Notes: generated from the letters alone by a model not told the origin. Shown: positions 12,554 through 24,099, counted from the stretch's first letter. The stretch is DNA of 64,000 nucleotides from Bacillota bacterium (GCA_023512375.1 JAILZS010000008.1:1-64000), one strand, 5' to 3'. A program made the numbers and translations.

Positions 12554-12856
12554 TCACCAGGGGCGGGGTCCGAAGAGGACCCGCACCCCGTCGGCGCTGG
12601 CGAGCACGACGCGTCCGTCGGCATCGCGCTCGGCCGAGCGAAGGCGCGACAGGGCGAGCATCGCCTCCCCCACGAAGACCAGCTTGAGGGCGTCTTCGCC
12701 CCCCGCCGTCCCCGCCTCGCCGCGGGCCAGACGCACCGGCAGGTTGCGCAGGCGCAGGCCGCCCGCCTCCAGGCGCAGGTACACCTCGCCCGGAAGCTCG
12801 CCGAGCAGGGCGAGGGCGCGTTCCGCTACGCCTTCCCCGCCTCCGGGCGCCGTCAC
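12554..12856 (-). CDS. Unrecognised 100-residue protein after tlyA
   Basis: I do not recognise this protein. It starts with ATG overlapping the tlyA stop by four bases (ATGA), so it is translationally coupled to tlyA. Codons end in G or C throughout, as in real genes here. The sequence is a short alternating-strand pattern (EVYLRLEAGGLRLRNLPVRL, then LKLVFVGEAMLAL and VVLASADGVRVLF) that suggests a small beta-rich fold. It has no signal peptide, no cysteine and no helix-turn-helix. In related genomes argR or recN often follows tlyA, but this is neither. Confidence 0.7.
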   Translation of the reverse strand: MTAPGGGEGVAERALALLGELPGEVYLRLEAGGLRLRNLPVRLARGEAGTAGGEDALKLVFVGEAMLALSRLRSAERDADGRVVLASADGVRVLFGPRPW

Positions 12857-13683
12857 GTCGAACCGCCCGCCCGCGCCGCTCGAAGGGCCAGGGCGGCGGC
12901 CACCGCCTCCTCCAGCTCCGCCGTCGCCAGGCCATGCCCCGCCCCCGCCTCCGCCCAGAGCAAAAACTCGGCGTTCCCCTCCGGCCCGAGGATGGGCGAG
13001 GCCATGACCGCCCGCGCCCCCACGCCGACGGCCGCCAGGGAGGCGGCGACGGCCGTCACCGCCCGCCGCCAGTCGGCGGGGTCGGCGACCACCCCCCGCC
13101 GCCCCACCCGCGCCGGCCCCGCCTCGAACTGGGGCTTGACGAGGCAGACGGCGTGGCCGCCGGCGCGCAAGAGGTCGCCGATCGCCGGCGCCACCTTCGT
13201 GAGGGAGATGAAGGCGAGGTCGGCCGTGACCACCTCCACCCTCTCCGGCAGGTCGTCCGCCCGCAGGTGGCGCGCATTCGTGCCCTCGCGCACCACCACC
13301 CGCGCATCCTGCCTGAGGCGCCAGGCCAAGAGCCCGCGCCCGACGTCCACGGCGTAGACGCGCCGCGCGCCGTGGGCGAGAAGGCAGTCGGTGAAGCCGC
13401 CCGTGGAGGACCCCAGGTCGGCGCAGACGGCGCCGGCGACCGGCACCGGCCAGCGCTCCAAGGCCGCCTCCAGCTTCCTACCGCCGCGCGAGGCGTAGCG
13501 GGGGCCGGAACGCAGGCGCACGGCCGGCTCGCCCCGCACGCGGTCGCCAGGCCGGGGGCGCTCCGCGCCCTCGACCTCCACCTCGCCCGCCAACAGGGCC
13601 GCGGCCGCCTGCGATCGGGTGGCGAACAGGCCGCGCCGCACCAGGTGCTGGTCGAGGCGCTCCCCCCGACCCTCGGCCGCCAC
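12853..13683 (-). CDS. tlyA: TlyA family rRNA methyltransferase/putative hemolysin
   Basis: S4 RNA-binding domain (GERLDQHLVRRGL, ~6-18, through ~60) joined to an FtsJ-like methyltransferase domain with the SAM motif CADLGSSTGGFTDCLL. In mycobacteria TlyA 2'-O-methylates rRNA. I use the GTG at 13683, just after the dxs stop; another GTG at 13710 would extend the protein nine residues and overlap dxs. It follows dxs as in most Bacillota (dxs-tlyA). ~276 residues is the usual length. Confidence 0.9.
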   Translation of the reverse strand: MAAEGRGERLDQHLVRRGLFATRSQAAAALLAGEVEVEGAERPRPGDRVRGEPAVRLRSGPRYASRGGRKLEAALERWPVPVAGAVCADLGSSTGGFTDCLLAHGARRVYAVDVGRGLLAWRLRQDARVVVREGTNARHLRADDLPERVEVVTADLAFISLTKVAPAIGDLLRAGGHAVCLVKPQFEAGPARVGRRGVVADPADWRRAVTAVAASLAAVGVGARAVMASPILGPEGNAEFLLWAEAGAGHGLATAELEEAVAAALALRAARAGGST

Positions 13684-13684
13684 C

Positions 13685-15637
13685 CTAGCCCCCGCCCCCC
13701 CGCCGCTCACCCGCCACCCGTACCCGGCCGCGGCCCGCCGCCCCGAGAGGGGTGGCGGCGGGCAGGGCGGTGAGGAAGGCGTGGACGCGCTCGGCCACGC
13801 CGGCGCTGTCGAGGCCGAGCTCGGACAAGAGGGCCCCCCGCTCCCCGTGGGGGACGAAGGCGTCCGGCAGCCCCAGGCGGAGGAAGGGCACCGCGCCCAG
13901 CCCGGCCGCGTCCAGGCAGGCGCGCACGGCGTCGCCGAACCCGCCCGCCACGGTCCCCTCCTCTAGGGTCACCACCGCCCGCGCCGATCGCGCCGCCCGC
14001 TGCGCCAAGCCCTCGTCCAGGGGCTTGACGAAGACGGCGTCCGCCACCATCGCCTCGACGCCCTGGCGCGCGAGGATCTCCGCCGCCCCCTGCGCCACCG
14101 CCACCATGCTGCCGACGGCCAGGATGGCGACGTCGCGCCCGGTCCGCAACACCTCGCCCCGCCCCACCTGTACGGGGCGGGGGGGCCCGTCGTAAGCGAC
14201 GTCGGGCACGCTCCCCTTGGGGTAGCGCAGCGCCCAAGGGCCCTGGCTCGCCAGGGCGGCGGCCATGAGGTCGCGCAGCATGGCGGCGTCGCGCGGCGCC
14301 GCCAGCACGAGGTCGGGCACCGCCCGGAGGTAGGCGAGGTCGAAGGCGCCGTGGTGTGTCGGCCCGTCCTCGCCTGCGATCCCGGCGCGGTCGAGGCAGA
14401 ACAGGACGGGAAGGCGCTGGAGGGCGACGTCATGGATGACGATGTCGTACGCCCGCTGCAGGAAGGTGGAGTAGATGGCGACGATGGGGCGCATGCCCCC
14501 CGCGGCCAGGCCGGCGGCGAAGGTGACGGCATGGTTTTCCGCGATGCCGACGTCGAAGAAGCGGTCGGGGTAGGCGGCGTGGAACGCCCCCAGCCCGGTG
14601 CCGTCCTCCATCGCGGCGGTGATGGCCACCACGCGCGGGTCACCCCGCGCCAGGCGGACGGCGATCTCGCCGAACGCCTGGCTCCAGGAGGGCCTCCCCC
14701 CCTTTCCGCCCAGGGGGCGGCCGGTGGCGGGGTCGAACGGCCCGCCGCCGTGGAAGCGGTCGCGGGCGCTGGCCGCGGGGGCGTACCCGCGGCCCTTCTC
14801 GGTCACCGCGTGCACCACCACCGGCCCGCCCATGGCCCGCGCCCGCTCCAGGATATCCTCCACCAGGGCGCGGTCGTGGCCGTCGATGGGCCCTAGGTAA
14901 CGGAAGCCGAGCGCCTCGAAGAACGCCCCCGGCACCACGAGATGGCGCAGGCTCTCCTTGAGCCGCTCGGCAGCGCGGGCCGTGCGCGGGCCGACCACGG
15001 GGATGGCCCTGAGCGTGGCCTCCAGGTCATGCTTCATCTGCTGGTAGGTGGGGGCGCTGCGGATGCGCGTCAGGTAGGTGGAGAGCGCCCCTACGTTGGG
15101 GGAGATGGACATGGAGTTGTCGTTGAGGAGGACGACGATGTCCGTGCCCAGCGTGCCGGCGTTGTTGAGAGCCTCGAACGCCAGCCCGCCCGTGAGGGCG
15201 CCGTCCCCCACGAGCACCGCCACCGCGCCCCGGCCGCCCGACAGGTCGCGCGCCTTGGCGAACCCCAGGGCGGCGGCGATGCCCGTGGAGGCGTGGGCGG
15301 TGCCGTAGGCGTCGTACGGCGACTCCTCGCGCCGGGGGAAACCCGACAGCCCGCCGCGCTGGCGCAACGTGGCAAAGGCCTCCCGCCGCCCCGTCACCAG
15401 CTTGTGGGCATACGCCTGGTGGCCGACGTCGAACACGAGGACGTCGGCCGGGTCGTGGAACACGCGGTGCAGGGCGAGGACGAGCTCGACCGCGCCCAGG
15501 CTCGCCCCCACGTGCCCCCCGTTGCGGGCGCACGTCTCGACGATCTTCGACCGGATCTCCCGCGCCAGGGCGTCGAGCTCCGGCCCCGTCAGGGAGACCA
15601 GATCGGCGGGCGAGTCAACGCGGTCGAGGACGCCCAC
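13685..15637 (-). CDS. dxs: 1-deoxy-D-xylulose-5-phosphate synthase
   Basis: Thiamine-diphosphate enzyme joining pyruvate and glyceraldehyde-3-phosphate, the entry step of the MEP isoprenoid pathway. 650 residues: TPP-binding GDGALTGG (144-151) with the later NN of LNNAG, histidines in GHQAYAHK and YGTAHASTG, the central transketolase pyrimidine domain with LDRAGIAGEDGPTHHG, and the C-terminal transketolase domain. GTG start with AAGGGGG nine bases upstream. It overlaps the end of oapA by 23 bases, tying its expression to the OLE/oapA transcript. Confidence 0.97.
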   Translation of the reverse strand: MGVLDRVDSPADLVSLTGPELDALAREIRSKIVETCARNGGHVGASLGAVELVLALHRVFHDPADVLVFDVGHQAYAHKLVTGRREAFATLRQRGGLSGFPRREESPYDAYGTAHASTGIAAALGFAKARDLSGGRGAVAVLVGDGALTGGLAFEALNNAGTLGTDIVVLLNDNSMSISPNVGALSTYLTRIRSAPTYQQMKHDLEATLRAIPVVGPRTARAAERLKESLRHLVVPGAFFEALGFRYLGPIDGHDRALVEDILERARAMGGPVVVHAVTEKGRGYAPAASARDRFHGGGPFDPATGRPLGGKGGRPSWSQAFGEIAVRLARGDPRVVAITAAMEDGTGLGAFHAAYPDRFFDVGIAENHAVTFAAGLAAGGMRPIVAIYSTFLQRAYDIVIHDVALQRLPVLFCLDRAGIAGEDGPTHHGAFDLAYLRAVPDLVLAAPRDAAMLRDLMAAALASQGPWALRYPKGSVPDVAYDGPPRPVQVGRGEVLRTGRDVAILAVGSMVAVAQGAAEILARQGVEAMVADAVFVKPLDEGLAQRAARSARAVVTLEEGTVAGGFGDAVRACLDAAGLGAVPFLRLGLPDAFVPHGERGALLSELGLDSAGVAERVHAFLTALPAATPLGAAGRGRVRVAGERRGGGG

Positions 15638-16271
15638 GGCTGTTCCCCCTTCCGTCTCCTCCCCGCCCAGGGGCGTGCCGCCGTGACCGCGCGCCGAACA
15701 GGGGAGGCAGACCCAAGCGTTCGGTCCAGAATAGCACTTCCCCGCTCAGCCGCACCACCGCCACCGCGTCCGCCAACGCCAGCGTCTTGGCCACGGCCTT
15801 CAGGCCCACGTTGGCACCGGCCACCGCCCCCACCGCCACCGCCCCCCACAGCGGGTCGGGCCGGCCGCCCGCCAGGCGGTAGGCGGCACCGGTGGCCAGC
15901 GCGCCCGCCAGCGTCCCGGCCACGTCGCCCACGAAGTCGAGGCAGAAGTTCGCCACCTTGTCGGCGTGAGCGATGAGGCGCAGCGACTGCAACGCCCCCG
16001 GGTGGTGGCGCGCCGCCCGGGCATGGAAGGGCTCGGGCGGGCAGGCGGCGACGCTCACGCCCACCATGTCGAAGGCCAACCCGAGGGCCACCACGACGCC
16101 CACCACGGCCACCGACACCGGGACGGCGGCCGCCCCCGGCAAGGCGCGCTGGGTGGCGAGGACGACGGCGCCGCTCACAAAAAGGGAAAGCGCCCCCATG
16201 GCCAGCGCCCGGCGCCCCACCCCGGCAAGGGGACGGCGGCGTGCGGACGGCGCACGGCGGCGCAAACGCAT
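15615..16271 (-). CDS. oapA: OLE-associated membrane protein OapA
   Basis: 218-residue membrane protein with about four hydrophobic segments (~24-40, 50-68, 115-132, 142-160). The conserved core holds FDMVGVSVAACPPEPFHARAA (68-88, with a charged turn) followed by LRLIAHADKVANFCLDFVGDVAG. It has the CNNM/DUF21-like character I associate with OapA, the protein partner of OLE RNA. It lies between a structured noncoding region and dxs, the position reported for oapA in Bacillus halodurans and related extremophiles. The start is uncertain: ATG 16271 or ATG 16199, neither with a strong ribosome site. The identification rests on topology, recalled family motifs and context. Confidence 0.75.
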   Translation of the reverse strand: MRLRRRAPSARRRPLAGVGRRALAMGALSLFVSGAVVLATQRALPGAAAVPVSVAVVGVVVALGLAFDMVGVSVAACPPEPFHARAARHHPGALQSLRLIAHADKVANFCLDFVGDVAGTLAGALATGAAYRLAGGRPDPLWGAVAVGAVAGANVGLKAVAKTLALADAVAVVRLSGEVLFWTERLGLPPLFGARSRRHAPGRGGDGRGNSRGRPRPR

Positions 16272-16284
16272 GTCGGGTGGCGGC

Positions 16285-16822
16285 CGGCCGGATAAACGCT
16301 GCGGCTTAGGTCCAGCGGGCTTTCCCCCGCGGGCGGCGCCGGTGTCGCCACCGGCGGGGTTTCCCCGTCTCCCCGCCCGCCGCGCGGCGTCGCCGCGCGC
16401 GCTGCTGGACGGCCACTGAGTCCGCACTGTAATCCCCGGCCGGCCTCCTGTGGAACAGCCTAGGAGCTTTCCTCGACGCCTCGCGTCTCCCTTAGCCTCT
16501 GTTGCAGGCGCGGTTTCTGACGTCCTGCCGTCCACCGCGCCCACGCAAGGCAGGCTACGCTGCACCCAGCGCGGCCGCGCCAGCGCGCTCGCACCGCATG
16601 CAGGTTCTCCCCGGCCCGTAGCGTTCACCACGCGACCGGGTCTCCACGGAGGAGGGCGGAAGCCGCATGCCGTTGCGGCCGACCCCGCCTCCTTAACCCC
16701 CAGCAGCACCCGGGGCTGGGCGCCCCAAGCCACCACCAGGGACTTCATCGATTTGCCCGCGACGGCGTTTTACAACCGCCTTGGGGGAGGCGAGGCGCAC
16801 TAGGATACTGCGCCACCCGTGC
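16285..16822 (-). ncRNA. ole: OLE RNA (ornate, large, extremophilic RNA)
   Basis: About 540 bases directly upstream of oapA without a coding pattern, unlike the dense genes around it, and rich in nested hairpins. On the minus strand near the 3' end a GTCCAGC/GCTGGAC helix (16404-16410 with 16310-16316) closes a multibranch unit. That unit contains CGCGCGGC/GCCGCGCG (16381-16399), GCCGGTG/CACCGGC (16338-16355), GGGG-AAA-CCCC (16356-16366) and GCGGGC/GCCCGC (16329-16334 with 16375-16380). Purine-rich internal segments such as GAGGAAAGC, GGGGAGAACC and GTTAAGGAGG are OLE-like. The order OLE-oapA-dxs-tlyA is the published OLE context. Ends are approximate. I recognise it by context and structure, not by aligning a consensus. 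Confidence 0.75.
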
Positions 16823-16827
16823 GATGC

Positions 16828-16836
16828 AGTATACCA
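16828..16836 (-). promoter_or_regulatory. Extended -10 promoter for OLE-oapA-dxs
   Basis: Minus strand TGGTATACT: a TATACT hexamer (16828-16833) with the TG of an extended -10. No good -35 lies 16-18 bases upstream. The -10 lies inside a 7-base inverted repeat (ATACTGC 16805-16811, GCAGTAT 16826-16832). Confidence 0.6.
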
Positions 16837-17028
16837 TCGAGTCGCGACGGCACCGAGCGCCGGCACGGCGCGCCGCAACGTCACGCGACGCACCGTCGCG
16901 GTCGCGTGCGCGACTACCGCCGGCTTTCGCACCGCGCCGCGGCCAACCGCGCTGTCGCGTGTCGGTGCTGAACGCTTTCGCGTCCATGGCCGCATGCGTC
17001 CACGGGTGCGCACGCCTACGCACCGCGC
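16837..17028. other. Gap between the DUF192 gene and OLE, no gene seen
   Basis: About 190 bases between the stop of the DUF192 gene and the OLE promoter. CpG-rich with several short palindromes and no coding bias on either strand; the open frames here lack ribosome sites and recognisable motifs. The 5' end of OLE could extend into it if transcription starts upstream of the extended -10. Confidence 0.5.
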
Positions 17029-17463
17029 CTAACGCCGGCCGCCGCCCCGTGCCGGACCGACCGCCGTCTGGACGCCGGCCGTATCCTCCCCCGCCCTCTC
17101 TCGCACCAGGCGGTCGCCGGGCGTCACCCCGGCCGCCTCGGCCGCCCCCGCGGCCAGTTCGAGCACGGCGCGCGCGCGCAGCACGAGCGGCCCGAGGCGC
17201 CACGGGCGCAGGGGGGCGACCACCCGCAGGACGCGCCCCTCCCGGTCGAGGTACACGGCGTCGATGGCCATCCGCATGCCCAGGGCGTGGACGGCGTTGC
17301 ACGGCTCCAACCACAGCCCCTCGTCCGGTTCCAATGAGGTGCGCCCCAACAGGCCCACCATGCGGGAGCGCGCATCCGCGGCCAAACACACGCGCCCCGC
17401 CACCACCCGCCCGTCTTCGCTCCGGCGCACGCACCACGTGCCCTTCGCCGGCACCCTGCTCAC
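17029..17463 (-). CDS. DUF192 family protein
   Basis: 144-residue DUF192 protein: signature MVGLLGRTSLEPDEGLWLEP (residues ~36-55), then HALGMRMAIDAVYLDREGRVLRV, and a C-terminal beta-barrel part with LELAAGAAEAAGVTPGD. Function unknown; DUF192 genes often accompany tad/Flp pilus loci. The GTG start overlaps the stop of the VWA-like gene (GTGA). It lacks the signal peptide that many DUF192 proteins have. It is the last gene of the pilus unit before the OLE promoter. Confidence 0.87.
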   Translation of the reverse strand: MSRVPAKGTWCVRRSEDGRVVAGRVCLAADARSRMVGLLGRTSLEPDEGLWLEPCNAVHALGMRMAIDAVYLDREGRVLRVVAPLRPWRLGPLVLRARAVLELAAGAAEAAGVTPGDRLVRERAGEDTAGVQTAVGPARGGGRR

Positions 17464-18968
17464 GCTCCCTCCTGCGCCCGGTCGGTCCCGCCGCCGACGC
17501 CCCGCCGCCCCGTCCCGGCGCGCAGGCAGAGGGCCACGTCGGCCACCCGCACCCAGACCCCCTCCGGCAGGGCGAGGGACCGGCGCGGCAGCCCGTCCGC
17601 ACCGTACAGGTGATGGTGGCCTAACGCCTGCGCCCGCCACCCGGCGCCGACCCGCTCCAGACGCGCGAGGGCTCCCTCCTCGGCGGTGGGCACCGCCACC
17701 GTCACCCCGGGCCCCTCGGCCGCGCCCACCACCAAGACCCCGCGCGCCGGCGGGAGGGCGACGAGTCGCTCGCGCTCCCCCTCGCCCGCGCCGGCCGGGC
17801 GCACCGCCAACGTGACCGCTCGCGCCCACCGCCGCCTCCCCCGCAGGAGCGCGACCGCGGACAGGGCGAGGAGGGCCCCTGCCGCCGCAGCGGCCCCCAG
17901 GCGCACCGCGGACCGAAGGCGCGACGACGTCCCCCCACCGACCGGGCCCCCCGCCGCGTGCCGCGCGCCGGGTCGGGAGCCGGGCGGGGAGGGAGGGCTC
18001 CCCCCGGAGGCCTCCTGCACCGCCCCCGCCTGCCCCGGCGCCAGGCCGACGGTGGCGCCGTCCGGGGCGCCCACGATGCGCTCCTTCCCCGGGGAGAGCC
18101 GAAGTGTCTGGCGCCTGCCGCCCGCCTCCACCACGGCCGAGGCCGCGGTCGAGCCGTAGGCGACCAGGGCCAGCCGGCTCCCCAGCCGGCGCCACACCAG
18201 GAGCGGCGGCCCTCCCGGCGCCGCCCACAGCGTCGAGCTCGCACCCTTGGCCGGCACCAGCGCCACCGCCCCTCCGCCCGCCGGGACGAGGGCGAACAGC
18301 CCTGGCGCCGGCGCCGTCGGCGCCAGAGCGGGCGCCGGCCGCAGGGGCGTCCATCCCAACCAGCGCAACAGCCGCGCCGCGGCGGGAGCCATGGGCGACG
18401 CCCCCACCACCGGCCAGCGTTCCGGCCCCGGGTTGTCGCCCACCCGCACCGTCACCCATCCGTCGCCCCGGGCGGCGTAGGCGGCGTTCACCGCCGCCAG
18501 GCGGCGGGCGTAGGCGGGGGGAAAGGCGCGTTCGCCCGGATCGGGCTCGTCGTCCGCCACCACCACTGCCCGCACCCCACCCCGCCCGGTGCCGCCCAGC
18601 TGGCTGAGCGCCCACGCCGCCGCCGACGCCGCGTCTGTGGGACCCGACCACCCCAGGTGCGGCAGGCGCAAGAGCGAAAGAGGGCCCTCGGACGCGCCCG
18701 ACCCGAGCCAACGCCGCTCGCCCCGGGCCGCGAACAGCCCCACCGCCACGCGCCAGCCGCGCGGCGCCGCCTGGGACAGGAGATGCACCCAAGCCAGACG
18801 CAGGCGCCCGCCCGGGTCGGAGGCCGAGACGCTGGGCGCGACGTCGACCAGCACCGCCAGGACGGGGCCGGGCCGGGCGAAAGCCCCACCGACGCCGCCG
18901 GGCAACGCCCACGCCGCCAGGGCGAGCGCCGCCGCCCACGCGCCCCGGAAGACCGCCCCGCCCCTCAT
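17460..18968 (-). CDS. VWA-like membrane protein of the tad locus
   Basis: 502 residues. N-terminal signal or membrane helix (~10-28). Then a von Willebrand factor A-like start VLVDVAPSVSASD (~36-48), in which the usual D-x-S-x-S metal site reads D-x-A-P-S-V-S, so metal binding is doubtful. Next comes a proline- and glycine-rich linker, a second membrane helix near residue 370 and a basic cytoplasmic tail. I do not recognise a specific family. It is coupled to tadC by an ATGA overlap and to the DUF192 gene by GTGA, so it is probably a component or surface partner of the pilus apparatus; that is inference from position. Confidence 0.7.
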   Translation of the reverse strand: MRGGAVFRGAWAAALALAAWALPGGVGGAFARPGPVLAVLVDVAPSVSASDPGGRLRLAWVHLLSQAAPRGWRVAVGLFAARGERRWLGSGASEGPLSLLRLPHLGWSGPTDAASAAAWALSQLGGTGRGGVRAVVVADDEPDPGERAFPPAYARRLAAVNAAYAARGDGWVTVRVGDNPGPERWPVVGASPMAPAAARLLRWLGWTPLRPAPALAPTAPAPGLFALVPAGGGAVALVPAKGASSTLWAAPGGPPLLVWRRLGSRLALVAYGSTAASAVVEAGGRRQTLRLSPGKERIVGAPDGATVGLAPGQAGAVQEASGGSPPSPPGSRPGARHAAGGPVGGGTSSRLRSAVRLGAAAAAGALLALSAVALLRGRRRWARAVTLAVRPAGAGEGERERLVALPPARGVLVVGAAEGPGVTVAVPTAEEGALARLERVGAGWRAQALGHHHLYGADGLPRRSLALPEGVWVRVADVALCLRAGTGRRGVGGGTDRAQEGA

Positions 18969-19888
18969 CGGAACAGCCCCAGCCGCAGGGCGCGCAGCAC
19001 CGCCGGCCCCAGCACGAGGAGGAAGAGCCCCGGCAGGATGAACATCACCATGGGGAAGAGCATCTTGACCGGCACCTTGGCTGCGGCCTCCTCGCTGCGC
19101 ATGAGGCGCAGGCGGCGGAGAAGCTGGGACTGGGCGCGCAGCACGCCGCCGATGCTCGTGCCGAGCTCGTCCGCCTGGGCGACGGCGGCGGCGAACCGGG
19201 CCACGTCCTCCACCCCCGTGCGCCGGCCCATCTCCCGCAGGGCGTCGGCCCGCCCCTGGCCGTAGCGCATGCGCACGAGGGCGAGGCGGATCTCCTCCGA
19301 CAGGGGGTCGGAGCGCCCTTCCGCCACCCGCGTGAGCGCCGCCTCGAACCCGAGCCCGGCCTCCACGCACGTGACCAGCAGGTCGAGCGTATCCGGCAGG
19401 GCGCGGGCGATGGCGCGCTGTCGCGCCGTCACCGCCTGCGTGAGGGCGACGGTGGGCAAGAGGGGCCCGACCAGCAAGCCCAGGAGGGCGACGATGACGC
19501 CGAGGCGCGCCGGCAGGCCCAAGGCGAGGGCGAGGGTGAGGCCCGCTGCCAGGCCGGCCGCCGCCGCCAGGCCTCGGCCCAGGAGGGCCATGTCGGCCCG
19601 GGCCGGCGACCGGCCGGCCCTCTCCAGGGTTCGCGCCATGCCCTCGCGCAGGGAGGCGGGCGTCATGCGCCCGAGGCGTCGCGCCCACGCCGCCAGGAGC
19701 GGGTCGACCACCCTGCGCCGGAAGGGCTCAGGGCCCTCGGGTGCCCCCTGCCGCGGGCGGGCCACGGCCTCCAGACGGCGCCTGAGGTCCCGGACCGGGG
19801 CCTCCGCCTCCGCCCACGCCCCGACCGCCGCCGCGGCCACCCCGAGGACGAAGATGCCGTATGCCCACGTCGCCCCCTGCACGCCCAT
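18965..19888 (-). CDS. tadC: Flp pilus inner-membrane protein TadC
   Basis: 307-residue GspF/T2SSF-fold platform protein of the tad pilus. Membrane segments near residues 8-25, ~105-145, and at the C-terminus (VKMLFPMVMFILPGLFLLVLGPAVL). The central T2SSF block has ALPDTLDLLVTCVEAGLGF and ADELGTSIGGVLRAQSQ, the TadC signature. The start may be the ATG at 19888 or the GTG two codons later (19882); AGGGGG abuts the ATG and is better spaced from the GTG. It pairs with TadB to form the platform driven by TadA. Confidence 0.92.
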   Translation of the reverse strand: MGVQGATWAYGIFVLGVAAAAVGAWAEAEAPVRDLRRRLEAVARPRQGAPEGPEPFRRRVVDPLLAAWARRLGRMTPASLREGMARTLERAGRSPARADMALLGRGLAAAAGLAAGLTLALALGLPARLGVIVALLGLLVGPLLPTVALTQAVTARQRAIARALPDTLDLLVTCVEAGLGFEAALTRVAEGRSDPLSEEIRLALVRMRYGQGRADALREMGRRTGVEDVARFAAAVAQADELGTSIGGVLRAQSQLLRRLRLMRSEEAAAKVPVKMLFPMVMFILPGLFLLVLGPAVLRALRLGLFR

Positions 19889-19893
19889 CCCCC

Positions 19894-20832
19894 TTACACG
19901 TCGATGCGGCTGACGCGGCGGATCCACAGCGCGCCCACGGCGTCCAGGACGGCGATCGCGGCCAGGATGCCCAGGCCGGCGCGCGTCGTCCACAGCACGG
20001 ACACGAAGCTCGGCGCCGTGGCCAAGAGGAGCAGCCCCACCCCCACGGGCAGGAGGGTGAGGATGGTGGCGCTGAGGCGGTTCTGGGCCGTGGCGGCGCG
20101 CAGGCGCTGGCGCAACTGGATGCGTTCGCGCACGGTGGCGGCGATGCCGTCGAGGATCTCGGCCAGGCTACCGCCCACCTGGCGCTCCACGGCGATGGCC
20201 GTGGCCACGAGCGACAGGTCCGGTTGCCCCAGGCGCGCCGCCAGGTCGGCCAGGGAGTCCTCCATCGGCTGGCCCAGGGCGTGGCGGCGGTGGACCTCCA
20301 GGAGGTAGGGCCCCAGGGGTTCCGCGGTCTCCCGACCGGCGGCCGCGAAGGCCTGGGCCAGACCGTAGCCGGCGTGGAGGGCGGAGGCCACCAATACCAG
20401 CGCGTCGGCCAGCTGCCCCTCCATGGCCCGAAGGCGGGCCTCGGCCCGGCGCCCCAGAAGCCACGGCGGGAGGGCCAAGGCGACAGCCGCCCCCACCGCC
20501 GCCGCCGCCGGCCCGGCCACGGCCAGCCCGGCAAGCGAGACGAGGACGACGGCGCCGGCGCGCACCGCCAGGTACTCCCTCGGCGTCAGCCCGACGCCCG
20601 CCCGCGCCAGGGCGAGGGCTGCGCCCGAGGCCCGCCCGTCCGCCCCGCGCCGCGGCCGCCGCCGGCGCGGCGCGGCCGCGGGCGTCGGCAGGGCGGCTTG
20701 GGGCGAGCCCCCAGCCACCTCCGCCACGCGGCGCGAGAGGGCCCGTCCCGACGCCAGGAGGAGGGGACGGGCGGCGCCCAGGGCGATGCCCAGGCCGAGG
20801 ACGAAGAGCACCCATGCCCCGTATGCCCTCAC
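19894..20832 (-). CDS. tadB: Flp pilus inner-membrane protein TadB
   Basis: 312-residue T2SSF-fold protein. N-terminal membrane helix, a basic loop (~40-75), two helices at ~78-115, the T2SSF domain with QLADALVLVASALHAGYGLAQAF and EVERQ-like ERQVGGSLAEILDGIA, and a final membrane helix. It partners TadC in the pilus platform. GTG start coupled to the tadA stop (GTGA). Confidence 0.92.
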   Translation of the reverse strand: MRAYGAWVLFVLGLGIALGAARPLLLASGRALSRRVAEVAGGSPQAALPTPAAAPRRRRPRRGADGRASGAALALARAGVGLTPREYLAVRAGAVVLVSLAGLAVAGPAAAAVGAAVALALPPWLLGRRAEARLRAMEGQLADALVLVASALHAGYGLAQAFAAAGRETAEPLGPYLLEVHRRHALGQPMEDSLADLAARLGQPDLSLVATAIAVERQVGGSLAEILDGIAATVRERIQLRQRLRAATAQNRLSATILTLLPVGVGLLLLATAPSFVSVLWTTRAGLGILAAIAVLDAVGALWIRRVSRIDV

Positions 20833-22154
20833 GGCACCCTCCCCCCGGCGGCGCCGGCCGCGCCCGCTGCGACCAGGAGGTGGCGCACCCGGCGCCCGCC
20901 CCCCTCCAGACGGTCAAGCGCCTTCGGCAAGAGGCCCGTGGGGGCGAACCGTGCCGGTCCCCCGCCCGGGGGCGGGGCGTAGGCGAACAGGTCCTGGAGG
21001 GTGATCGTGTCCCCCTCCATGCCCACGACCTCCGTGATGCTCTCCACCCGGCGCCGGCCGTCCCGGTCCCGCCGCTGGTGCACGATGAGGTCGACGGCGG
21101 CCACGATCTGCTGGCGGATGGCGCGCAGGGGCAGTTCCGCCCCGCTCATGAGGACCATGGTCTCCAAGCGCGACATGAGGTCGCGCGGGGAGTTGGCGTG
21201 GGCGGTGGTGAGCGACCCGTCGTGGCCCGTGTTCATGGCCTGCAACATGTCCAGCGCCTCGCCGCCGCGCACCTCGCCCACGATGATGCGGTCGGGTCGC
21301 ATGCGCAGGGCGTTGATCACGAGCTGGCGGATGGTGACCTCCCCCCGCCCCTCGACGTTGGCCGGGCGCGCCTCGAGGCTCACCACGTGCTCTTGCTGCA
21401 ACCTTAGCTCGGCCGCGTCCTCGATGGTGACGATGCGCTGGTCGGCGGGGATGAACGAGGACAGGGCGTTGAGCATCGTCGTCTTGCCGCTGCCCGTGCC
21501 GCCGGAGACGACGATGTTGAGGCGGGCGTCGACCGCCGCCTGCAGGAAGGCGGCCATCTCCGGCGACAGCGTCCCCGCCGCCACCAGGTCGCGCATGCGG
21601 TAGGCGTCCGGGGCGAACTTGCGGATGGTGACCGCCACCCCGCGTACCGACACGGGGGGCACCACCACGTTCACGCGCGCCCCCGACGGCAGCCGTGCGT
21701 CCACCATGGGCGAGCTCTCGTCCACCCGCCGCCCGAGGGGGGCGAGGATGCGCTCCACCACCTGCAGGACGTGGGCCTGGTCGCGGAAGCGCACGGGAGT
21801 GCGCTGGATGCGCCCGTCGCGCTCCACGTACACCTCGCCCGGCGCGTTGACCATGATCTCGGTCACGCCCGGGTCCCGCAGCAGCGGGTCGAGCGGACCA
21901 TACCCCCCCGCCTCGTCGCGGGCCGCCGCCAAGATGGCCTCCCGCTCCGCCCGCGTGTAGGTGCGCGACGCCTCCGCCAGGACCTGGTCCACCATCTCCT
22001 CGACCGCAGGCCCGTGCGGGTCGGCCGCCTCGTCGGCCAGGCGGCGCAGCACCTCCCGCACGACGGCGTCGACCTCCGCCCCCGCGGCGGGCGGCGGCGC
22101 TCCTTCCGTCGCCCCCCCGACCGAGGGCGGACCCAACCGGCGCAGGACGCTCAC
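20829..22154 (-). CDS. tadA: Flp pilus assembly ATPase TadA/CpaF
   Basis: Hexameric secretion ATPase powering Flp pilus assembly, 441 residues. Walker A GGTGSGKTT (218-226), the aspartate-box segment TIEDAAEL, Walker B RIIVGEVRGGEALDML, and the histidine box NTGHDGSLTTAHAN, all diagnostic for the CpaF branch of PilT/VirB11 ATPases. GTG start in a GTGA overlap with cpaE; the frame is open far upstream but only as a shadow of cpaE. Confidence 0.96.
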   Translation of the reverse strand: MSVLRRLGPPSVGGATEGAPPPAAGAEVDAVVREVLRRLADEAADPHGPAVEEMVDQVLAEASRTYTRAEREAILAAARDEAGGYGPLDPLLRDPGVTEIMVNAPGEVYVERDGRIQRTPVRFRDQAHVLQVVERILAPLGRRVDESSPMVDARLPSGARVNVVVPPVSVRGVAVTIRKFAPDAYRMRDLVAAGTLSPEMAAFLQAAVDARLNIVVSGGTGSGKTTMLNALSSFIPADQRIVTIEDAAELRLQQEHVVSLEARPANVEGRGEVTIRQLVINALRMRPDRIIVGEVRGGEALDMLQAMNTGHDGSLTTAHANSPRDLMSRLETMVLMSGAELPLRAIRQQIVAAVDLIVHQRRDRDGRRRVESITEVVGMEGDTITLQDLFAYAPPPGGGPARFAPTGLLPKALDRLEGGGRRVRHLLVAAGAAGAAGGRVP

Positions 22155-23380
22155 GTCCGCCGCCCCCGAAACAGGCCGCGTCGGGGCGCCGGCCGGGCTC
22201 CGCCCACGAGGCGGGCGGCCAGCCGCTCGGCCGCGGCGGCCACGGGGCCGCGGCGGGCCACATGGGAAACCGGCAGGCCGCGGTTCATGGCGGTCACGGC
22301 CGCCCGGTCCTCGCCGGCGCGCGCCCACACCGGCAGGCCGAGGGTGCGCTCGAGGTCCGCCGGGTCGGGCCCGTCCGACCGCCAACGGTTGAGCGCCAGC
22401 CCGACCTTGGCCACCGGGATGTCGAAGCGGCCGAAGAGGTCGATGGCGAGGCGGGCGGCGGCGGCCGAGGGGAGGTCGGGCCCCAGGACGAGGATGACGC
22501 TGTCCGCCTCCTGCGCCGCGGCGAAGTCGGCCTCGCCCAGGGCGCTCGAGGTGTCGAGCACGGTGGCGGGGAAGGCGGAGCGGCTCGCCTCCACGATGGC
22601 GGCCACATGGGCGTGGCGCACGTACTCCGCCACCTCGGGCGCCTCCGGCGCGCACAGCACCTCGACCCCCGAGGCGGCGTGGGGCGTGAGGTAGGTGCGC
22701 AGGGTCTCGCCGTCCAGGCTCGCCGCCTCGCCCAGCAGGTCGCTCAGCGGCCGTGCGGGCCGCAGGCCTAGGGCCACCCCCACCGCCCCCGCGCCCAGCG
22801 CCAGGTCGGCCAACGCCACGGGGGAGGCGAGGCGGCGGCGCAACGCGGCGGCCAGTTCGATGGCCAGAGTCGTCTTGCCGACGCCACCCCGCAAGGAGAA
22901 GAGCGCCACGGTGAGCCCGCGCTCCGCCGCCGGCGCCGACGCCATCCCTGCGACCGCCGCCCCCCCGCTCGCCGCCTCCCGACCCGCCCGATACACCGCC
23001 TCGGTGAGCTCGGCCAGCTGGGCGCCGCGCGCCACCACCTCCGCCGCCCCCAGAGTGCGGCAGGTTCGGTACAGGGCGCCGTCCAGGCGCTCGGCCACGA
23101 CCACGAGCGCCGTCCGCCCCCCCCTTAGCCGCTGCCACGCCTCGCCCAGGGCGGACGGAAAGGCGCCTCCCTCGCCCGCGTCCCACACCACCACGTCGAC
23201 GCCATGCGCCAGCGCCGCCTCCACGTCCTCCGGCCGCTCGCTGTCGCCGTGGCGCACCACCCGGAGATCCTCCACCGGCGCCAGCCGCGCCGCCAAGGCG
23301 CTCCGCCAAGCGAGGTCGGGGGAGAGGACAGCCACCCGCAGGGCGCGCGGCGCGCTCGCGTCCGCCACCGCCGCCATCAT
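22151..23380 (-). CDS. cpaE: Pilus-localising MinD-like ATPase CpaE/TadZ
   Basis: 409 residues in two domains: a receiver-like N-terminal domain (~12-130) with the aspartate-bearing strand VDVVVWDAGEG (61-71), and a ParA/MinD-type ATPase domain with deviant Walker A RGGVGKTT (164-171) and the switch strand ATVLDTSSALG. TadZ proteins place the pilus machine in the cell. The start overlaps the cpaB stop (ATGA at 23377-23380); a second ATG follows one codon later. Confidence 0.9.
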   Translation of the reverse strand: MMAAVADASAPRALRVAVLSPDLAWRSALAARLAPVEDLRVVRHGDSERPEDVEAALAHGVDVVVWDAGEGGAFPSALGEAWQRLRGGRTALVVVAERLDGALYRTCRTLGAAEVVARGAQLAELTEAVYRAGREAASGGAAVAGMASAPAAERGLTVALFSLRGGVGKTTLAIELAAALRRRLASPVALADLALGAGAVGVALGLRPARPLSDLLGEAASLDGETLRTYLTPHAASGVEVLCAPEAPEVAEYVRHAHVAAIVEASRSAFPATVLDTSSALGEADFAAAQEADSVILVLGPDLPSAAAARLAIDLFGRFDIPVAKVGLALNRWRSDGPDPADLERTLGLPVWARAGEDRAAVTAMNRGLPVSHVARRGPVAAAAERLAARLVGGARPAPRRGLFRGRRT

Positions 23381-24099
23381 CGCACCCCTCCCACCAGCGC
23401 GGCCGGCGCCACCGTCGGCGACGGCGATCCGCTGTCGGACGGGTTGCGCAGGGCAAGCGACAGAGGACCCGACGTCTGGGCCAAGGCGAGGGCGGCGGCC
23501 TGGCGCGGCGTCACCTCCAGCACGACCGAGGTGTACGTGCCGCTCGTCACCTGCCCGCCTGCCTCCGCCGACCCCGCGCTGCCCCCCACCACGGCCAGGA
23601 CGGGGACGTCGGTCAAAAGGACCACGGCGCGGGCGGGCGAGACGCTGTTCACCACCGCCACCACGTCCACGCGATCCCCCGGCGCGAGCAGGCCCCCGAC
23701 CCCGGCGGCCGACGACACCGGCAGGTCGACGGCCCGCATGCCGTGCGGCAGCTGGGCGGCGAGCGTGGCCTGGGCCGCGCTGGCGTACAGCATGCCGGCC
23801 ACCACGGGTTCGCCCGCCCAAAGCGCCTGACGGGCGACCGCGCCCGCCACCGCCGCCGGCGAGGTCACGCTTCCCGGCGGCACGTCGGCCACGGGCAGAC
23901 GGCGCTGCACGAACTCCCCCGGGTTCAGGGAGGCGCCGGCGGCGATGTCCACCCGGGGGACCAGCACCGCCGCCGTCGCCGGAGCCGCCGCCCGTCCCGC
24001 CTGGGCGGCCGCCTCCTGCCTACGCATCCACACGAGGGCGGCGGCCGCCATGCCGACGCCGACCACGACCATGAACCGATACACGCCCTGCGCCCGCAT
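23377..24099 (-). CDS. cpaB: Flp pilus assembly protein CpaB (RcpC)
   Basis: 240 residues: N-terminal membrane helix (~9-25), then an SAF domain with VLVPRVDIAAGASLNPGEF and the RcpC/CpaB block LPHGMRAVDLPVSSAAGVGGLLAPGDRVDVV. CpaB is extracytoplasmic and links the pilus base to the envelope. Good ribosome site GGGAGGG eight bases before the ATG. No gene for the outer-membrane secretin RcpA is present, as expected for a single-membrane cell. Confidence 0.92.
   Translation of the reverse strand: MRAQGVYRFMVVVGVGMAAAALVWMRRQEAAAQAGRAAAPATAAVLVPRVDIAAGASLNPGEFVQRRLPVADVPPGSVTSPAAVAGAVARQALWAGEPVVAGMLYASAAQATLAAQLPHGMRAVDLPVSSAAGVGGLLAPGDRVDVVAVVNSVSPARAVVLLTDVPVLAVVGGSAGSAEAGGQVTSGTYTSVVLEVTPRQAAALALAQTSGPLSLALRNPSDSGSPSPTVAPAALVGGVR

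Follow-up and report, generated by a model that had tools for sequence, protein, structure and literature searches.

The window analysed here, a stretch of 64 000 nucleotides from a Bacillota bacterium (JAILZS010000008.1:1-64000 of assembly GCA_023512375.1), carries on its minus strand an OLE RNA followed by oapA, dxs and tlyA (table 1), exactly the order that a first-pass annotation had read at this locus. The draft genome comprises 104 contigs with a total of 2.68 Mb and is 93% complete, and the window itself has a GC content of 75.8%; Spo0A is encoded, which supports the earlier description of the organism as a spore former.

Table 1. Positions in the window of the OLE RNA, its structural elements and the genes that follow it.
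Feature	Position	Strand	Details
Extended -10-like element TGGTATACT	16828-16836	-	read from sequence; no -35 match; weak
OLE RNA (RF01071)	16261-16832	-	572 nt by model borders, 71% GC; cmscan 322.4 bits; fold z -5.15
P1 5' strand, GGGUGG	16813-16818	-	pairs with CCAC 16277-16280; sequence, MFE structure
P3/P3.1 5' strand, stem proposed to cross the membrane	16784-16799	-	14 bp with 16475-16492; duplex -27 kcal/mol
P4 hairpin and A-rich loop L4 (dimer bridge B1)	16761-16780	-	GUAAAAC
k-turn 5' half for OapC, GAUGAAG	16743-16749	-	fits family consensus
L5 GCGCCCAGC, one side of bridge B2	16715-16723	-	its GCC is the complement of the GGC in L6
L6 CCGCAACGGCAUGCGG, other side of bridge B2	16663-16678	-	comparison of 55 class copies
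k-turn 3' half, CGUGGAG, J6/7	16642-16648	-	fits family consensus
P9 arm, 66 nt	16493-16558	-	retains its base and the conserved GGA/GAAA internal loop; lacks the tip of about 40 nt with L9.3
P3/P3.1 3' strand	16475-16492	-	pairs with 16784-16799
P13 terminus with its loop GGUGGCGACACC, OapB-binding region	16341-16352	-	alignment
oapA, CNNM-like membrane protein, 218 aa	15615-16271	-	alignment, 21 relatives; AF2 pLDDT 86; Foldseek
dxs	13685-15637	-	TIGR00204, 747 bits
tlyA	12853-13710	-	TIGR00478, over cut-off

The OLE RNA and its flanks

The RNA aligns from 16832 to 16261 with the whole of the Rfam covariance model (1-616 of 616; E 5e-91 for the window, gathering score 50), and is the sole match above gathering returned by cmscan for the entire window, in which a tRNA search found none. 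The conserved OLE blocks (GCAGUAUCCUAG, AUCGAUGAAG, GCAACGGCAUGC, CCGUGGAGACCC, GUAGCCUGCCUUG, GGAAAGCUCCUAG, GGGGAUUACAGUG, GGACCUAAGCCGCA and UUUA) are intact in the alignment, and the predicted fold of the OLE strand, at -334 kcal/mol versus -298 kcal/mol for dinucleotide shuffles, is more stable than each of the 100 shuffled sequences. The full-length match, the intact blocks and the fold therefore bear out the first-pass identification of a highly structured OLE RNA, for which a search with this very model had been suggested, so that the assignment of 16261-16832 may be regarded as near certain on sequence grounds. As to the length, the stretch proposed is indeed non-coding, but it measures about 570 rather than about 540 nt. 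The 3' flank of the model reaches about 10 nt into the start of oapA, and the oapA ATG starts 6 nt past the 3' strand of helix P1.

A promoter had also been annotated in front of the RNA; of this, the extended -10-like element TGGTATACT is present, but a scan upstream of the window OLE for consensus -35/-10 pairs found no full promoter. As regards a -10 element shared in position upstream of OLE RNAs, the best position holds 21 of 134 copies. The approximately 190 bases between the OLE RNA and the preceding DUF192 gene (16840-17028, minus strand) contain no evident gene and no Rfam match, and the genes upstream (17029-23456, minus strand) resemble those of a DUF192 protein and of Tad-type pilus/secretion systems rather than xseAB-ispA, which are common before OLE.

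OLE ranks with the largest RNAs of bacteria for which no biochemical function is known. More than 2,800 OLE-containing genomes have been catalogued (PMC11332333). The window OLE belongs to this known family, to which the present analysis adds the loss of the P9 tip, the covariation of P3/P3.1 and, in a sister family, the joint loss of OapB and its P13 site.

OapA, the other partners and their co-occurrence

The product of oapA shares 27-46% identity with 21 OLE-adjacent relatives, with nine residues invariant in the alignment, and, used as a query, matches 61 of 62 named Bacillota loci, in agreement with its first-pass naming as OapA. Its AlphaFold model (alignment of 22 rows) has long helices at residues 16-43, 49-76, 103-133 and 140-167, consistent with four membrane spans and hence with the small four-span protein envisaged earlier. 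The top six Foldseek matches of the model are all CNNM/CorC Mg2+ transporter structures (probability 1.00), which agrees with the published link between OapA and MpfA (PMC11332333). At the level of sequence, searches gave no match in Pfam (up to E 1) or NCBIfam, the cut-off of the CNNM family PF01595 not being reached, and none in the PDB for the window protein, where a profile returned chance matches only; used on its own as a query, it retrieved no relative from either genome_contigs or viral_contigs. Among loci with enough sequence downstream of OLE to be testable, oapA directly follows the RNA in 50 of 54 from the class, as does dxs (50/54), and the named Bacillota loci give 61 and 54, respectively, of 62.

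The remaining known partners are encoded elsewhere in the genome. An OapB homologue lies between map and infA (L075:1182-1511), its best PDB match being 7K9B, 'OLE-associated protein B' (E 1.7e-4); an OapC homologue lies between rpoC and rpsL (L057:1465-1758; best PDB match YbxF, E 8e-15), and bS21 is present as well. On the RNA side, L13 keeps the GGCGAC motif. No MpfA-like CNNM protein over the Pfam cut-off, the threshold used throughout for MpfA, was found in the window's genome. Among the class genomes, such proteins occur in all three near-complete genomes without OLE (G020, G026 and G045, also without OapA and OapB) versus 7 of the 56 with OLE, counts that are not corrected for phylogeny and a contrast that rests on few events, because two of the three share one family. 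Replacement of OLE by MpfA is, moreover, not strict, since those seven genomes hold both.

In the sample of 61 class genomes, OLE was found in 56 and OapA in 57; the OLE of the additional OapA genome is cut by a contig end, so that the two co-occur in 57 of 57. The most divergent complete OLE RNAs of the class (272-282 bits) are those of family f9 (G019, G044 and G060; loci L046, L051 and L052), in which no OapB match was found, the P13 loop lacks GGCGAC and has a tetraloop-like end, the k-turn is altered, the P9 tip is lost and MpfA-like proteins are present. OapB and the P13 site were thus lost together in f9, in a single event; a joint loss of OapB and its site is reported for TANB77 (PMC11332333). 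L13 differs as well in two further genomes that do encode OapB. As a separate observation, one OLE (L128, PWYO01000232.1) sits on a contig that bears the label Actinomycetota (MAG T3Sed10_139); a binning error or transfer may account for it, the explanation that the same source gives for most OLEs outside Bacillota.

The P3/P3.1 stem and the P9 arm

Lyon and Breaker (PMC12265935) have proposed that P3/P3.1 crosses the membrane, for which, by their estimate, about 14 bp are needed. As this stem is absent from the Rfam structure, it provides an independent test. Its covariation was assessed on 118 OLE RNAs (55 class and 63 named copies), in which the copies' own strands pair over a mean of 14.0 bp (-19.6 kcal/mol) versus 10.1 bp (-10.4 kcal/mol) when strands are swapped between genomes. 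The 5' segment is 20-22 nt long in 117 of the 118 copies although it comprises 99 distinct sequences, and a pattern search of the named loci, with the gap left free at 8-28, returned a gap of 18-20 in 80 of 80. For a stem expected to have about 12-14 bp in OLE, that of the window, with 14, is GC-rich, well paired and formed in the predicted fold, and its pairing is compensated across the 118 RNAs; the expectation that a copy of this GC content would be a strong source of covariation thus holds for P3. The window stem has the length needed by the membrane-crossing model. Constant length alone is, however, no proof of membrane crossing, because P5 is equally constant. The position of the OapB gene in a translation operon fits poorly with a placement outside the cell of domain 2, to which OapB binds.

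In the cryo-EM dimer of Clostridium OLE, three bridges are described (PMC12286853): L4-L4 (B1), L5/L6/L7 (B2) and an L9.3 kissing loop (B3). The GCC of L5 and the GGC of L6 are kept in all 55 class copies, while L4 has five A residues in 54 of 55, the window copy, from a draft genome in 104 contigs, alone having four. The P9 loop of the window is GCAGGA, without a palindrome, and L9.3 is missing. Across the class, P9 arms are either short or long (n = 55; OLE alignments were made with MAFFT on divergent RNAs, P9 borders being set by conserved anchors), with 64-77 nt in 10 copies versus 97-126 nt in 45, a bimodal distribution. A palindromic loop (GGCC, GGGCCC, GGCGCC or GAGCUC) is present in 42 of the 45 long arms and in none of the 10 short ones, and the very variation among these palindromes supports self-pairing of the loop. 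Short arms are found in families f1 (represented by the window's draft genome alone), f3 (of the same order), f9, f12 and f28 and in one f18 genome, corresponding to about five changes of state, one of them at an ambiguous root, on a tree of the OLE RNA (not of the species) built without P9. P7 length showed no significant association with P9 loss (p 0.14). Two long OLE RNAs, of 676 nt (L020, G035) and 688 nt (L044, G015), have a P9 that folds as two hairpins, with a palindrome in neither loop in G015.

Short P9 stems are reported for OLE variant 1 (PMC11332333); in the portions of the OLE papers covered, no statement was found on what a short P9 means for bridge B3. Judged from its sequence, the window OLE is without the P9 kissing-loop contact, though OapA, OapB, OapC and bS21 are still encoded.

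A probable membrane-held ribonucleoprotein and its alternatives

We consider it very likely that both the RNA and the membrane component of an OLE ribonucleoprotein (RNP) are specified here, in which a membrane-held RNA, together with OapA, OapB, OapC and bS21, would act as a regulator of stress responses and Mg2+. By analogy with the OLE RNAs of Halalkalibacterium and Clostridium, from which membrane placement, particle make-up and regulatory role are taken, synthesis in front of oapA-dxs-tlyA and presumably trimming would yield the RNA, which a dimer of the CNNM-like OapA would keep at the membrane; OapC at the k-turn, OapB at P13 and bS21, all supplied from elsewhere in the genome, would complete the particle. 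The best supported role, which rests on published work in H. halodurans, would be in stress and Mg2+ homeostasis, the particle probably serving in place of the MpfA-type transporter that is absent from this genome. The window OLE is predicted still to pair with a second OLE through the modified L4 (B1) and through L5/L6 (B2), without the P9 arch. The P9 tip and L4 are both dimer contacts in the Clostridium RNA, and the loss of the one and the change in the other could instead point to a weakened or non-dimeric RNA.

Two other readings concern the nature of the RNA itself. A frame of 377 codons, open from 16748 through oapA and covering most of OLE, would be compatible with a coding region and a protein fused to OapA, but it is read as the product of chance, since at 75.8% GC frames open by accident and the oapA frame of the relatives is stopped inside or after OLE; with the full-length match to an RNA covariance model, the coding reading is for practical purposes already refuted, its probability being negligible, and the open frame looks like an accident of GC content. 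Neither conserved protein coding through the region nor a lack of covariance match and OapA similarity, the outcomes that the first-pass annotation had named as refuting it, was thus observed. That OLE is mainly a 5' leader controlling oapA or dxs in cis is improbable, even if it stands before oapA-dxs in almost every genome and P1 ends only 6 nt short of the oapA start. Indeed, oapA is located away from OLE in four genomes of three families (G021, G040, G046 and G058; OLE loci L007, L012, L023 and L053, oapA loci L077-L080), and in G058 the two are about 363 kb apart on the same contig, so that the link between RNA and protein has no need of cis linkage. A point for control in cis is that dxs directly follows OLE where oapA has moved, as found in G021, G040 and G046, the genomes covered by the scan (G058 is the sister of G040); against it, OLE is, in the published accounts, an abundant, processed and protein-bound RNA (PMC9723947, PMC12265935). 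That both components are kept even where they are unlinked argues strongly that they work together in trans. Beside the relocated oapA of G046 lies a gene for a sugar transferase.

The other two readings concern the departures of the window RNA from its relatives. It is unlikely, though by no means negligibly so, that this is a plain OLE whose missing P9 tip and changed L4 are meaningless, arising from neutral drift or from mistakes in an assembly of 104 contigs. In favour of such an explanation, the lengths of P7 and P8 likewise range widely across the class, and a single genome shows the altered L4; the bimodal P9 with its repeated changes on the tree speaks against it, the three short f3 copies come from separate genomes and agree in length, and a clean short hairpin with a conserved internal loop is hardly expected from assembly error. 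A decaying OLE on its way to loss, suggested by the lowest score of its order (322 versus 368-419 bits) and by the lost P9 tip, shortened P7 and altered L4, has a low probability, as f9 is the likelier example of such decay, and the window keeps the k-turn, P13, OapA, OapB and OapC, is without MpfA and has a well paired P3 of 14 bp.

Returning to a functional OLE RNP, we put forward tentatively, as a proposal that may quite possibly hold, that OLE RNPs in nature function without the P9 arch, lost about five times in the class, even when every known partner is present, so that a B1/B2-only dimer, or no stable dimer, would be needed, the length-locked P3 being the part that could not be lost. 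It is currently debated whether OLE acts as a dimer whose P3 stems pass through the membrane, and the class is natural test material, as arch-less and arch-bearing OLE RNAs are found within one order. For comparisons of dimerization, binding and stress, it also offers a P3 with many distinct 5' sequences yet almost fixed length, genomes in which oapA is unlinked but kept, and a family from which both OapB and its binding site in the RNA have gone.

Among known systems, the CNNM/CorC transporters and MpfA have a fold like that predicted for OapA, from which they differ in that the 218 residues of OapA leave no room for CBS and CorC domains; the resemblance is one of fold, without a Pfam match by sequence. 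With full-length OLE (RF01071; Fernando and Breaker 2024, PMC11332333) the window RNA shares the whole model, the loops and the k-turn, the order oapA, dxs, tlyA, and a genome with OapA, OapB and OapC and without MpfA; it differs in P9 (66 nt versus a median of 106), P7 (35 versus 51) and L4 (four A versus five). With variant 1 (TANB77 clade), described in the same paper, it shares the short P9 and the shorter P7, but its P8 is not short (48 versus a median of 38), and it keeps the P13 end, OapB and OapC, whereas in variant 1 the OapB site is often missing and OapB and OapC are mostly absent. Variant 2 (RF39 clade) is described there as lacking P7 and P8 entirely, both of which the window RNA has, the core loops being common to the two. 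Finally, in comparison with the Clostridium dimers (PMC12286853, discussed in PMC12265935), the window RNA, being without L9.3 (B3), would have no P9 arch, and its L4 (B1), though A-rich, is one A shorter; the L5/L6 complementarity of B2 is common to both.
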